From Mycetohabitans endofungorum (GTDB lineage Bacteria; Pseudomonadota; Gammaproteobacteria; Burkholderiales; Burkholderiaceae): a stretch of 64,000 nucleotides of DNA. The stretch spans positions 186,001-250,000 of the forward strand of contig NZ_PRDW01000001.1 in assembly GCF_002927045.1 (NCBI RefSeq). Direction: 5' to 3'. Below the pieces are notes generated by a model, which saw only the letters and a list, made by a program, of their open reading frames with translations, was not told the DNA's origin and searched no databases. Position numbers and translations under genes: made by a program. Shown here piece by piece: positions 1 through 6,435 of the stretch; the stretch's first letter is position 1; each line of letters opens with the position of its first letter.

Positions 1-84
1 GCATCGATTTACAACGCGGTGCCGTTGGACGGCGTAAAGGCGCTCGTCGAATACATGAAGGAATTCGAGCAACGCCGCGCCTGA
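1..84 (+). CDS. serC: Phosphoserine aminotransferase, C-terminal end (partial)
   Basis: The reading frame is open from the window edge and stops at 82-84 (TGA). The last 27 residues include SIYNAVPLDGVKALVEYM, which closely resembles the C-terminus of Burkholderia SerC. SerC transfers an amino group from glutamate to 3-phosphohydroxypyruvate in serine synthesis, using pyridoxal phosphate. It lies 47 bp upstream of pheA on the same strand, the usual serC-pheA order of this family. Only the tail is visible, so the catalytic lysine cannot be checked. Confidence 0.85.
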   Translation, partial: ASIYNAVPLDGVKALVEYMKEFEQRRA

Positions 85-131
85 GGTCGCGTGGACCCAG
101 GGCCGGTTTTTTTCCACGGGCCGATGTTGCG

Positions 132-1214
132 ATGGACGAAGAACTGAATCTGAAACTCAAGCCATTGCGCGAGCGCATCGACGAGATCGACCGGCAATTG
201 ATCGCGCTGCTGAACCAGCGCGCGCAGGTTGTCCTCGGGGTCGGTGAGGTCAAGAAGGCGTATCACGCGCCAGTGTTCTGGCCGGAGCGCGAGCAGCAGG
301 TGATCTCGCGTCTGCAGGCGTTATCCGCCGGGCCGTTGGGCAGCGAGCATATCGCGTTGATCTGGCGCGAGATTATGGCGGCGAGCCGCCAACTCGAGAA
401 AGCGCAGCGGGCTGCGTACCTGGGCCCGGAGGGTACCTATAGCGAGCAGGCGATGCTCGGCTATTTCGGCCAGTCAATGACCGGCCTGCCGTGCGTGTCG
501 ATCGACGAGGTGTTCCGCTCGGTCGAGGCGGGCGCAGCCGATTTTGGCGTCGTGCCCGTCGAGAATTCGACCGAAGGCGCAGTGTCGCGCACGCTGGACC
601 TATTGCTCGAGACGTCGCTGCAGATCAGCGGTGAACTATCGCTGCCGATCCAGCATCATCTGCTCACGCAAAGTGGCACGTTGCAAGGGGTCACGCGGGT
701 GTGTGCGCACGGGCAGGCACTCGCACAGTGCCAGAACTGGCTCTTTGCCAACGCGCCGCTGCTCGAGCGCCAGGCGGTGTCAAGCAATGCTGAGGCTGCC
801 CGGGTGGCAGCGGCGGAGCCCACCGTGGCGGCGATCGCCAGCGAACGCGCCGGGACGCAGTACGGTTTGCAGACCGCGTTCGCGTCGATCCAAGACGATC
901 CGCACAATCGCACGCGTTTCCTAGTCATCGGCGGCGATCCGCCTGGTGCGACGGGCTGCGACAAGACGTCGGTGATCTTCTCGGTGAAGAACGAGCCGGG
1001 TGCAGTGTTCCAGATGCTCGAGCCGCTGGCACGACATAGTGTGTCGATGAGCCGTTTCGAGTCGCGCCCGGCGCGCAGCAGTGCGTGGGAGTATTTTTTC
1101 TATATCGATCTCGAAGGCCATCGGCACGACGCGGCGGTCGCGGCCGCGCTCGTAGAGCTGGAGCGTGCCGCGGCCTATGTGAAGATACTCGGTTCCTATC
1201 CGCGGACCCGGTAG
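132..1214 (+). CDS. pheA: Bifunctional chorismate mutase / prephenate dehydratase (P-protein)
   Basis: This 360-residue protein converts chorismate to prephenate and then to phenylpyruvate for phenylalanine synthesis. An AroQ chorismate mutase helix bundle occupies about residues 1-90 (LRERIDEIDRQLIALLNQR). The prephenate dehydratase domain follows from about 95 to 275, beginning AAYLGPEGTYSEQA and including the catalytic-type NRTRF motif near residue 259. A C-terminal ACT domain carries the phenylalanine-binding ESRP motif near residue 309, so feedback inhibition is likely. Length is normal for the family. The ATG at 132 opens directly on the mutase domain. The next gene downstream, hisC, is only a remnant. 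Confidence 0.95.
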   Translation: MDEELNLKLKPLRERIDEIDRQLIALLNQRAQVVLGVGEVKKAYHAPVFWPEREQQVISRLQALSAGPLGSEHIALIWREIMAASRQLEKAQRAAYLGPEGTYSEQAMLGYFGQSMTGLPCVSIDEVFRSVEAGAADFGVVPVENSTEGAVSRTLDLLLETSLQISGELSLPIQHHLLTQSGTLQGVTRVCAHGQALAQCQNWLFANAPLLERQAVSSNAEAARVAAAEPTVAAIASERAGTQYGLQTAFASIQDDPHNRTRFLVIGGDPPGATGCDKTSVIFSVKNEPGAVFQMLEPLARHSVSMSRFESRPARSSAWEYFFYIDLEGHRHDAAVAAALVELERAAAYVKILGSYPRTR

Positions 1215-1320
1215 GATCCGCGCCGGCGGACCCTCCGGTGGCGGCCGGCGTGTGATCGCCATCGCCTGCCACGGCCGTTGGCCAACCTCGTCGTCGTCAT
1301 TTGTCTGGAGCCTAAACATC

Positions 1321-1420
1321 ATGTCAGCCATGCAATACGGTCCGTCCCACGTGCGTGCGTTTGCCCCAAAACGAAGTGTTCCTCGCCGCGCTGCACAAGG
1401 CGCTGGCACCGAGCAGGATG
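1321..1420 (+). pseudogene. hisC: hisC (histidinol-phosphate aminotransferase) remnant, both ends kept, middle deleted
   Basis: An ATG at 1321 follows a good ribosome binding site (TCTGGAG) and encodes MSAMQYGPSHVRAFAP, which resembles the N-terminus of Burkholderia HisC2. Immediately afterwards, in a different frame (from about 1355), the sequence LPQNEVFLAALHKALAP matches the C-terminus of the same protein. Roughly 330 codons between them are absent, including all pyridoxal-phosphate-binding residues. Position fits: hisC lies between pheA and tyrA in this family. No stop codon separates the tail fragment from tyrA, so it reads in frame into tyrA. The identification rests on two short matches plus synteny. 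Confidence 0.8.
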
Positions 1421-1489
1421 TCGATCGTCGTGACGCCCTCATCCTGGTTCAGCAGGCGCATACCGTGCACCTCATTACGCTATCGTATC

Positions 1490-2410
1490 GTGGCCGCGTT
1501 CTCTTTTAATAAACTTGTCGTCGTCGGCGTCGGGCTGATCGGTGGCTCATTGGCGTTGGCGCTGCGCGAGCGCCACGGCGGCACCGGCACGATCGTCGGT
1601 GTTGGCCGCGGCGCCAGCTCGCTGCGCACGGCGCTCGAGCGGCGCGTCATCGATGAGGCGGTTGTGGTCGACGATGACGCCGCGCTGGCCGGCGCGTTGC
1701 GCGGCGCGGATCTGGTCGTGCTGGCGGCGCCCGTCGCGCAGACCCGTGCGCTGCTCGATGCCATCGCGCCGCACTTGGAGCGATCCACGATCGTTACCGA
1801 CGCGGGCAGCACGAAGCACGACGTCATTGCCGCCGCCCGCGCCGCGCTAGGCGCGCGGCTTGCGCAGTTCGTGCCCGGGCATCCGATTGCCGGGCGCGAA
1901 TCCAGTGGGGTCGAGGCGGCGCTCGCCGACCTGTATGTGGGACGCAAGGTGGTGTTGTGTCCGCTTGCGGAGAACCCGCGCGCCGTGGTGGACCGGGTGG
2001 CCGCCATGTGGGAGGCGAGCGGAGCCTCGTTGCATGAGATGACGGCGCAGCAGCACGATGCGGTTTTTGCCGCCGTCAGCCACTTGCCGCATGTGCTGTC
2101 GTTCGCGCTCGTCGAGACGATCCTACGTGCACCGGATGCGGCGTTGAAGCTGTCGTTCGCTGGCGGGGGCTTTCGCGACTTCACGCGGATCGCGGCGTCG
2201 AGTCCGGAAATGTGGCGCGACATCTGCGTGGCCAACCGTGATGCGCTGCTCGATGGGATCGATGCTTACTCGGCCGTGCTCGCGACAGTGCGCGCAGCGA
2301 TCGCTGCGGGCGATGGTGCGACGCTCGAAGCGCTGTTCGCGCGCTCGCGCAGCGCGCGGGCGCAATGGGGCCGCGAGCGTGACGGGGCTTCCGAGTTTAA
2401 GCGGTGCTGA
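1490..2410 (+). CDS. tyrA: Prephenate dehydrogenase
   Basis: TyrA oxidatively decarboxylates prephenate to 4-hydroxyphenylpyruvate for tyrosine synthesis with NAD(P)+. The dinucleotide-binding loop [10 protein letters not shown] is near residue 13, [11 protein letters not shown] near 120-130, and a conserved histidine region is [20 protein letters not shown] chose the GTG at 1490 ([11 protein letters not shown]) because it gives the usual start of the family, about 10 residues before the nucleotide fold; no clear Shine-Dalgarno site precedes it. The frame is open back to the hisC tail fragment, so initiation at the ATG at 1418 or an upstream fusion is possible. The stop codon overlaps the ribosome binding site of aroA, suggesting coupling. 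Confidence 0.9.
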
Positions 2411-2424
2411 AAGGACCTTCTATC

Positions 2425-3741
2425 ATGGAATACCTCGACCTCGGACCCTACACGCGCGCGACCGGCACGGTGCGCCTGCCAGGCTCTAAGAGTATCTCGA
2501 ACCGCGTGCTGCTGCTGGCGGCATTGGCTGAGGGCGTTACGACGATCGACAACCTGCTCGATTCGGACGATACCCGCGTCATGCTGGCTGCACTCGAACA
2601 GCTGGGCGTCGCGCTGCGGCATGACGCCGCGCAGTTGCGTTGCACCGTGACAGGCGTCGGGAGCGTGTTTCCGGTCAAGCGGGCGGAGCTGTTTCTCGGC
2701 AACGCGGGAACCGCCGTGCGGCCGTTGACCGCGGCGTTGGCAGTCATGGGCGGCGAGTACCGACTGCATGGCGTACCGAGAATGCACGAGCGCCCGATCG
2801 GTGACCTGGTCGATGGCCTGCGGCAGCTCGGAGCACGAATCGACTATGAAGCCAATCCGGGCTTTCCGCCGTTGCTCGTGCATCCGGCGTCGATTCGTGC
2901 GAACGCGCCGATTCGCGTGCGAGGCGATGTATCGAGCCAGTTCCTGACTGCACTGCTGATCACGCTGCCGCTGGTGGAGACGGCCGGCGGCGAGGCGGTG
3001 GTCGAAGTGGAGGGCGAGCTCATCTCCAAACCGTATATCGAGATCACGATCCGCTTGATGGAGCGCTTCGGCGTGCACGTGCAGCGCGACGGCTGGCGGC
3101 GCTTCATCGTGCCGGCCGCCGGCCGCGCGCGTTACCGCTCGCCGGGCCGCATCGTCGTCGAAGGCGACGCGTCGTCGGCGTCCTATTTTCTCGCGGCCGG
3201 CGCGCTCGCCCACGGGCCGGTGCGTGTCGAAGGGGTTGGACGGGCCAGCATCCAGGGCGACGTGCGGTTCGCCGATGCGTTGGCCCGCATGGGGGCCAAC
3301 GTGATGATCGGCGACGATTGGATCGAGGTGCGCGGGGTCGAATCGGATGATGGCAAGTTGCAGCCGCTGGACATGGATTTTAATCTGATTCCGGATGCCG
3401 CGATGACGATCGCAGTCGCCGCGTTGTTCGCCAGCGGCATGACGACGCTGCGCAACATCGGCAGCTGGCGGGTCAAGGAAACGGACCGGATCGCCGCCAT
3501 GGCCACCGAACTGCGCAAATTGGGAGCGCACGTCGAGGAAGGCGCGCACTACCTGCGTGTGGCGCCGCCCGCCGCGCTGACGCCCAATGCCGTGATCAAC
3601 ACGTATGATGACCATCGGATGGCAATGTGTTTCTCACTGGTCAGCCTGGGCAATGTCCCGGTAAGGATTCACGATCCCGGTTGCGTCGGCAAGACGTTTC
3701 CCGATTATTTCGATAGATTTGCCGCGATTGCGCGTCCTTGA
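2425..3741 (+). CDS. aroA: 5-enolpyruvylshikimate-3-phosphate synthase
   Basis: This 438-residue enzyme joins phosphoenolpyruvate to shikimate 3-phosphate, the sixth step of the shikimate pathway. Visible motifs are [10 protein letters not shown] near the N-terminus (phosphate and shikimate binding), [40 protein letters not shown] and [12 protein letters not shown]. The ATG at 2425 has an AAAGGA ribosome binding site about ten bases upstream that overlaps the tyrA stop. The motif spacing and length are those of a full enzyme, so pheA, tyrA and aroA appear functional although hisC in the same cluster is lost. Confidence 0.96.
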
Positions 3742-3809
3742 TGCGGCGCCGGGCCGGTCCGCGTGCGTGCGATCGGCCGTTTGAAGTATTTTAGTCTCCA
3801 AATAGAGTA

Positions 3810-4541
3810 ATGAAGTCCAATCGTCCATTTCATGAACCCGTGCCAGTCATCGCGATCGACGGGCCGACAGCATCCGGCAAGGGCACGGTCGCGCAACTGG
3901 TGGCGGCGCACCTGGGCTTTCATTTGCTGGACAGCGGCGCGCTGTACCGGCTGGCGGCGCTGGCGGCGCAACGCTATGGAGTGGACAAGGACGACGTCGC
4001 CGCGCTGGTGGCGCTGATCGATGACCTCCATATCACCTTTCGCGAAGGCTGCGCGCAATTGGATGGCGTGGACGTTTCGACCGAAATTCGGCATGAGGCC
4101 GTCGGCAAGCTGGCCTCGGCGATCGCAGTTCATGCGCCGGTGCGCGGCGCGTTGGTGGCCCGACAGCGCGCGTTCCGCAAGCCGCCCGGCCTGGTCGCAG
4201 ACGGCCGCGACATGGGTACGGTGATTTTTACCGACGCGGTATTGAAGGTGTTTTTGACGGCAAGCGCGGAGGCCCGCGCGCAGAGACGTTATAAGCAATT
4301 GATACAAAAAGGGTTTCCTGCTAATATCGATGACCTTCTGCGGGATCTGCGCGAGCGTGACGCGCGCGACGCGAATCGCGCAAGCGCGCCGCTGAAACCG
4401 GCGGGGGACGCGCGCCTGCTCGACACGTCGACGTTGTCGATCGGCGAAGCGGTCGACCGGGTCGTAGCCTGGTACCAGCAAATCGAGCCGGCCACCGGTG
4501 CCACGAAGGCGGGCCATGGCCGGCAAGGCCCGCAGGTATGA
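3810..4541 (+). CDS. cmk: Cytidylate kinase
   Basis: Cmk phosphorylates CMP and dCMP with ATP. The P-loop [11 protein letters not shown] begins about residue 19, [12 protein letters not shown] follows, and [10 protein letters not shown] is the nucleoside-monophosphate-binding signature. The protein has 243 residues, slightly longer than usual because of a C-terminal tail (about 15 residues, ending RQGPQV). It sits between aroA and rpsA, the standard order in Burkholderia and many Proteobacteria. The 68-bp gap before it has no recognisable terminator, so it may be cotranscribed with aroA. Confidence 0.95.
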
Positions 4542-4719
4542 GCGTTGCGGCTCACCGGGCAGTGATGCGGCGGGGGCTTCGCAGCGCCCGATGCAGTTGT
4601 AGTGAGTAGCAGTACCGTAAGTATTCCACGGTGACGTGGGATGTGTTTTCAACCCTTAACCCCGCATGCGGTCGTCGGCGATCACGAAGCCGAGTCCCGT
4701 CATGCACCATTTCATTTTT

Positions 4720-6435
4720 ATGTCCGACCTGCAAACCTCTAACCCGAATACCGAATCTTTTGCGGCTCTGTTCGAAGAGTCGCTGACCCGCCAGGACATG
4801 CGTGCAGGCGAAGTGATCTCCGCCGAGGTCGTGCGCGTTGACCACAATTTCGTGGTCGTCAACGCGGGTCTAAAGTCTGAAGCCTACATTCCGATCGAAG
4901 AGTTCCTGAATGATCAGGGCGAGGTTGAGGTGCAGGCGGGCGATTTCGTATCAGTCGCGATCGACGCCCTCGAGAACGGCTATGGCGATACGATTCTGTC
5001 ACGCGACAAGGCCAAGCGTCTTGCTTCGTGGCTTGCGCTTGAAAAGGCGCTGGACAACAACGAGCTTGTGACCGGCACGATCACCGGCAAGGTCAAGGGC
5101 GGCATGACCGTGATGGTCAACGGCATCCGTGCGTTCCTGCCCGGCTCGCTGGTTGACACCCGTCCGGTCAAGGACACGACGCCGTACGAGGGCAAGACGC
5201 TCGAGTTCCGCGTGATCAAGCTGGATCGCAAGCGCAACAACGTCGTGCTGTCGCGCCGCGCGGTGATCGAAGCCACGCAAGGCGAAGAGCGCGCGAAGCT
5301 GCTCGAGACGCTGAAGGAAGGCGCGATCGTCAATGGCGTCGTGAAGAACATCACCGACTATGGTGCGTTCGTTGACCTCGGCGGCATCGACGGCTTGCTG
5401 CACATCACCGACATCGCGTGGCGTCGCGTGCGTCACCCGAGCGAAGTGCTGTCTGTGGGCCAGGAAGTGACCGCGAAGATCCTGAAGTTCGATCAGGAGA
5501 AGAACCGTGTGTCGCTTGGCATCAAGCAGCTCGGCGACGATCCGTGGGAAGGCATTTCGCGTCGCTACCCATCGGGCACGCGGCTGTTCGGCAAGGTCAC
5601 GAACATCACCGACTACGGTGCGTTCGTCGAGGTCGAGTCGGGCATCGAAGGCCTTGTGCACGTGTCCGAGATGGACTGGACCAACAAGAACGTCGCGCCG
5701 AGCAAGGTGGTGCAGCTCGGTGACGAAGTGGAAGTCATGGTGCTCGAGATCGACGAGGACCGCCGCCGTATCAGCCTCGGCATGAAGCAATGCAAGCCGA
5801 ACCCGTGGGATGACTTCAGCCGCAACTTCAAGAAGGGCGACAAAATCACCGGCGCAATCAAGTCGATTACCGATTTCGGCGTGTTCATCGGCCTGCCGGG
5901 CGGGATTGATGGCCTGGTGCACTTGTCGGACCTGTCGTGGAGCGAATCCGGTGAAGAAGCGGTTCGCAAGTACAAGAAGGGCGACGAGGTTGAGGCCATG
6001 GTGCTTGGCATCGATGTCGAGAAGGAGCGCATCTCACTGGGTATCAAGCAGTTGGAAGGCGACCCGTTCAACAACTTCGTGGCGATGAACGACAAGGGCT
6101 CAACCGTCGATGGCACGGTCAAGGCTGTCGATCCGAAGGGGGCCGTGATCCAGTTGAGCGCCGAGGTCGAAGGCTATCTGCGGGCGTCGGAAATCGCGCA
6201 GGACCGTGTCGAGGACGCGCGCAACGTGCTGAAGGAAGGTGACAAGGTCAACGTGATGGTCATCAACATTGACCGCAAATCACGCGGCATCCAGCTGTCG
6301 ATCAAGGCGAAGGATTCCGCGGAGCAGCAGCAAGCGATGCGCGGCCTGCAAGCCGACAGCAGCGCTGCCGCCAGCGGCACGACCAACCTCGGTGCGTTGC
6401 TCAAGGCAAAGCTGGACGGTCAACAGAACCAGTAA
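4720..6435 (+). CDS. rpsA: 30S ribosomal protein S1
   Basis: This 571-residue protein unwinds and holds mRNA on the 30S subunit. Six S1 RNA-binding repeats are visible; repeats three to five contain the typical [21 protein letters not shown]-type core. The ATG at 4720 (MSDLQTSN) is the family start; an in-frame ATG at 4666 would add an atypical 18 residues. No strong Shine-Dalgarno sequence precedes the start, as is usual for rpsA, which represses its own translation in E. coli. The upstream gap 4542-4719 is leader sequence. ihfB follows after six bases. Confidence 0.96.

Follow-up and report, generated by a model that had tools for sequence, protein, structure and literature searches.

A paralogue of hisC linked to pheA, hisHb, is described as an aromatic aminotransferase in the available text of a 2005 paper (PMC1173090). 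The same text reports the loss of hisHb in Burkholderia and its loss or absence in P. syringae, P. fluorescens, P. putida, Xylella and Xanthomonas. For the fungal endosymbionts of the genus Mycetohabitans, the accessible part of a second study gives putative pseudogenes as 6.4% to 9.96% of CDS (PMC12696581). Mycetohabitans and insect symbionts are treated as one GTDB grouping in the available portions of two papers (PMC12696581, PMC8692619).

The locus described here lies in a window of 64,000 nucleotides, the whole stretch of DNA that was analysed. It shares with the published hisHb losses the gene, its place between pheA and tyrA, and the outcome. It differs in that the gene has left a scar with both its ends, shared by genomes of one genus, and the accessible text of the 2005 paper makes no mention of such a scar (PMC1173090). 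The genus is probably the same as that of the pseudogene study, whose main text, as far as it is available, does not contain hisC, tyrA or histidine (PMC12696581). No description of the scar in this genus was found in the open-access literature among the matches listed, and a search of the plasmid collection gave no match. The scar is very probably a near-neutral relic of the redundant hisC paralogue (hisHb) after an internal deletion.

Remnants of hisC between pheA and tyrA

The gap between pheA, which ends at 1212–1214, and the conserved tyrA GTG at 1490 is 275 bases long. The features in and around it are as follows.

132–1214, + strand: pheA (chorismate mutase/prephenate dehydratase), intact; an ORF with the NCBIfam prephenate dehydratase model and a chorismate mutase domain over cut-off
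1307–1310, + strand: GGAG, Shine-Dalgarno-like; read from the sequence and the four-genome alignment
1321–1366, + strand: hisC N-terminal remnant, about 15 codons; profile score 27.0 bits, aligned in four genomes
1363–1372, + strand: deletion junction, exact base not fixed; from the alignment, in which the window has one nucleotide more than genome G007
1367–1411, + strand: hisC C-terminal remnant, about 15 codons, shifted by one frame relative to the N-terminal part; profile score 28.8 bits
1321–1509, + strand: out-of-frame ORF from the hisC ATG, 62 amino acids, overlapping the tyrA start; from the alignment
1490–2410, + strand: tyrA, probable start GTG 1490, which is conserved in relatives; from the ORF and comparison with relatives
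2425–3741, + strand: presumably aroA, named from its place and sequence without a family search; intact, its ATG within the ORF 2404–3741

The hisC frame from ATG 1321 reads MSAMQYGPSHVRAFAP, and its counterpart in the pheA-linked HisC of Trinickia terrae (L058) reads MTTQYGPSYVRAIAP. One frame on, the C-terminal end from 1367 reads QNEVFLAALHKALAP, with ENEAFIAALEKALA as its counterpart in pheA-linked HisC. The profiles that score the two remnants were built from 12 intact pheA-linked relatives. None of 1000 dinucleotide shuffles reached the score of either remnant, the best shuffle giving 13.1 for the N-terminal part and 10.0 for the C-terminal part. The site between pheA and tyrA and the match of both termini to intact linked HisC identify the gene as the pheA-linked hisC (hisHb). 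A query with whole HisC found no match in window bases 1–6000 (tblastn, E 0.01). Since the 12 intact genes encode 370–378 residues, about 1 kb has been lost from the window hisC, the cofactor-binding core included. The roughly 30 codons that are left do not contain the PLP-binding core with its catalytic lysine found in a functional aminotransferase. The coding capacity is gone here and the gene is intact at the same place in relatives, as in a pseudogene formed by internal deletion. The GGAG lies 10 nt ahead of the hisC ATG, versus 5 nt in the intact relative T. terrae, and the distance is 10 or 11 nt across the four genomes with the scar.

The preliminary description of this DNA had hisC reduced to its two ends inside an otherwise complete cluster, and its outline holds. 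The start and the first 15 or so codons are present, the middle is absent, and pheA and tyrA–aroA are whole on either side. The alignment with related hisC genes that it proposed finds both ends matching intact relatives, so the lack of similarity that it gave as a possible refutation does not occur. Two details need correction. The tail does lie in another frame, but it is nearer 15 residues than the 20 given. The ribosome binding site, said to be intact, is present as the GGAG but with a wider spacing than in T. terrae.

The scar across the genus

In G004, G001 and G007, the other three large genomes of the genus, these two hisC ends also meet at this site, so the window scar is not an assembly gap. 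In G007 (L012, reverse strand) the ends share one frame and encode 31 residues, MSAMQYGRSHVRALAPNEVFLATLQKALAPS, in a mini-ORF closed by a stop of its own. The window, G004 and G001 have one base more than G007 at the C/A-rich junction, which puts them out of frame. The shared scar is most simply explained by one deletion in an ancestor common to the four. The window's genome is a draft of 76 contigs, which could raise the suspicion of an assembly or sequencing error. Such an error is extremely improbable as the source of the scar, which is present in four separate assemblies, two of them with 2 and 3 contigs, and an assembly artefact is thereby ruled out. The complete hisC that a corrected assembly might have restored, allowed for in the preliminary description, is likewise not seen in any of the four. 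The 30-bp insertion and stop change described below are specific to the window, and they alone stay open to doubt about assembly.

The scar is found in four of the eight genus genomes, and in the other four (1.1–1.2 Mb) the TyrA search gave nothing at E 0.001. All three of the other large genomes have pheA, and three of the four small ones gave no pheA match. One small genome, G006 (1.2 Mb; L151, reverse strand, after pheA), lacks a TyrA match but retains pheA and, 785 bases from it, an aroA-like stretch. Neither hisC end finds a match in these 785 bases. They do contain two weak matches (E 0.045) in tyrA order, perhaps a decayed tyrA.

Histidine synthesis and recurrent loss of the linked paralogue

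A full hisC lies on contig C9 (77253–78278), between hisD and hisB, and scores 306 bits against a cut-off of 276.55 (TIGR01141). Exactly one HisC over the curated cut-off is found in each of the eight genus genomes. The preliminary description had held that the cell needs another histidinol-phosphate aminotransferase, or a broad aromatic one, to make histidine. That implication fails, and the second hisC copy that it suggested looking for is the one on C9. Histidine synthesis is not at risk: the intact hisC between hisD and hisB is the ordinary enzyme and rules out the need for an unusual substitute, which removes the supposed gap in the pathway. Two proteins of the window's genome also pass the aromatic amino acid transaminase model NF006719 (552 and 526 bits, cut-off 377), so tyrosine and phenylalanine transamination is probably covered too. 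Because the hisC of the histidine operon is kept, the loss of the pheA-linked copy is an ordinary loss of a redundant gene.

Other Burkholderiaceae have lost the linked gene as well, and repeatedly. It is absent, with pheA next to tyrA, from 36 of 110 tyrA loci, found in 71 and unclassified in 3, where "found" means a HisC match above 100 bits anywhere in the locus and a few of the 71 are cut or rearranged. These loci were picked by TyrA similarity in overlapping sets (110 rows, 108 distinct proteins), one of which covers 30 of the 50 genomes with a TyrA match, so the proportion 36 of 110 does not estimate how often the gene is missing in nature. Examples of loss include Burkholderia ubonensis, several Caballeronia, Pandoraea and Ralstonia soli. 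A TyrA tree made by a quick method (108 rows, 105 labelled) requires 8 changes in the state of the linked hisC, at least 5 of which are forced by starred (well-supported) branches.

The scar was seen in four loci only, all from this genus, and the other 32 of the 36 loci without linked hisC show none. The gap is below 96 nt in 26 of the 36, shorter than a 31-codon mini-ORF with its stop and thus too short to hold such a scar. No hisC remnant was found in three Burkholderia sensu stricto loci (L053, L018 and L048), which disfavours a shared loss; as judged from these sequences, the loss in this genus was probably a separate one. Each of the 11 same-family genomes in which the linked gene was seen has no fewer than two HisC matches at E 1e-60, so redundancy probably preceded loss. 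Among six same-family genomes outside the genus that have lost the linked gene, four (G017, G023, G035 and G036) keep two or three strong HisC matches. Loss there leaves more than one copy, which counts against a simple passage from two copies to one.

In T. terrae, tyrA and aroA share a single open reading frame 771 codons long (L058, 3947–6259). The available text of the 2005 paper reports a tyrA–aroF fusion in B. mallei and B. pseudomallei (PMC1173090).

A window-specific insertion, the tyrA start and the fate of the hisC start

Between the scar and tyrA, the window differs from the other genomes in two further ways.

1412–1441, + strand: 30-bp insertion, in the window only among the four genomes; an inverted copy of an aroA segment, with an in-frame ATG at 1418; from alignment and similarity search
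2526–2560, − strand: aroA segment matching the insertion on the opposite strand, at 32/35 bases in the window and 33/35 in G004
1445–1447, + strand: TGG where the hisC stop once stood; the other three genomes have TGA, TAA and TGA there

The insertion matches aroA on the opposite strand and is therefore an inverted copy whose source lies about 1.1 kb downstream. Its next best window match outside that aroA segment scores 17 versus 29, in a scan of 100-base stretches at 50-base steps that covered the window only; the whole genome was searched separately. An insert that matches nearby DNA in inverted orientation is the pattern of template switching, which is the likely cause. Short-range template-switch insertions, in what is available of their description, also place a short inverted copy of nearby DNA at a new site. 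Here, by contrast, about 1.1 kb separates the donor from the insertion.

The hisC tail frame is open into tyrA (ORF 1355–2410, 351 amino acids from its GTG) in the window's genome alone among the four with the scar. Gene finders may well extend TyrA upstream, given the in-frame ATG 1418 supplied by the insertion. Initiation at GTG 1355 or at ATG 1418, the latter adding 24 residues, would give the TyrA of this strain an extension derived from HisC or from the insertion, and the open frame is what makes this conceivable. In the other three genomes with the scar, a stop codon closes the hisC tail ahead of tyrA, and no such extension is conserved among relatives. GTG 1490 is conserved in relatives, and the TyrA model matches of the 351-amino-acid frame begin at least at residue 44, close to GTG 1490. 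An upstream start is very unlikely on these grounds, and the window TyrA most likely still begins at GTG 1490. The run of the tail into tyrA, as first described, is thus real, but a HisC-derived extension of TyrA is unlikely.

A further question is whether the old hisC start is still in use. Across the four genomes, a small sample of low divergence, the C-terminal part (13 of 46 columns variable) and the spacer after it (14 of 48) vary much as fourfold sites do (98 of 333). Ahead of the scar the spacer is slightly slower, with 18 of 85 columns variable (p 0.057), and the stretch from GGAG to ATG varies at 4 of 18. The first 42 nt of the N-terminal part (1321–1362) vary at 3 of 42 columns, which is less than at fourfold sites with p 0.0004 as a single test on a segment chosen with the feature in view. 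Pure neutrality does not predict this value, and it counts against reading the scar as a relic. In a scan of all 241 columns of the pheA–tyrA spacer, the quietest 42-column stretch is 1318–1359, with 2 variable columns, and the scan-corrected p is 0.053 (5.3% of shuffles). Read in the hisC frame, each of the three variable columns of the N-terminal part (1343, 1345 and 1360) alters the encoded residue, which gives no hint of peptide conservation and leaves a conserved mini-peptide unsupported.

The low variation, with the first 22 nt identical in all four genomes, could mean that the scar is kept as a translated mini-cistron, in which the former hisC start recruits ribosomes that then supply a weak tyrA start by coupling. 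This would fit the ORF from the hisC ATG, which ends 17 nt inside tyrA in three of the four genomes, and the fact that no clear Shine-Dalgarno can be read in the sequence ahead of GTG 1490. However, the corrected p value and the amino acid changes at all three variable columns argue otherwise. Neither the frame past the junction nor the position of the stop is conserved, the ORF of G007 ending 42 nt before tyrA, and the GGAG–ATG spacing drifts as well; this drift of frame, stop and spacing speaks for a relic. The 32 loci that lack both linked hisC and scar also weigh against a mini-cistron, though most of the 36 gaps are too short for one. Such a mini-cistron is unlikely, and a retained leader or coupling role for the weak excess conservation of the first 42 nt is possible but unlikely. 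A more specific proposal holds that selection maintains the dead hisC start as a leader on which ribosomes load and which governs tyrA expression, and that the window insertion begins to join this leader to TyrA. This appears decidedly unlikely.

If the scar is a near-neutral relic, the common ancestor of the larger genus genomes would have had the usual beta-proteobacterial order pheA-hisC-tyrA-aroA plus a further hisC within the histidine operon. Roughly 1 kb would have been deleted from inside the pheA-linked hisHb, joining its first 15 or so codons to its last 15 or so. The join may then have drifted, with the 1-nt difference at the C/A-rich junction separating G007 from the other three. 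In the window lineage, the 30-bp inverted aroA copy would have entered just before the old stop, as template switching predicts. The change of that stop to TGG would then have opened the frame into tyrA by accident.

The scar is an ordinary small feature, probably in a genus undergoing gene loss. It offers a clean example of one of two paralogous aminotransferases being dropped from a conserved operon with its ends left behind as a marker. If the start region is under selection, it would also indicate that a cistron can persist as a signal for translation after its coding function is gone.
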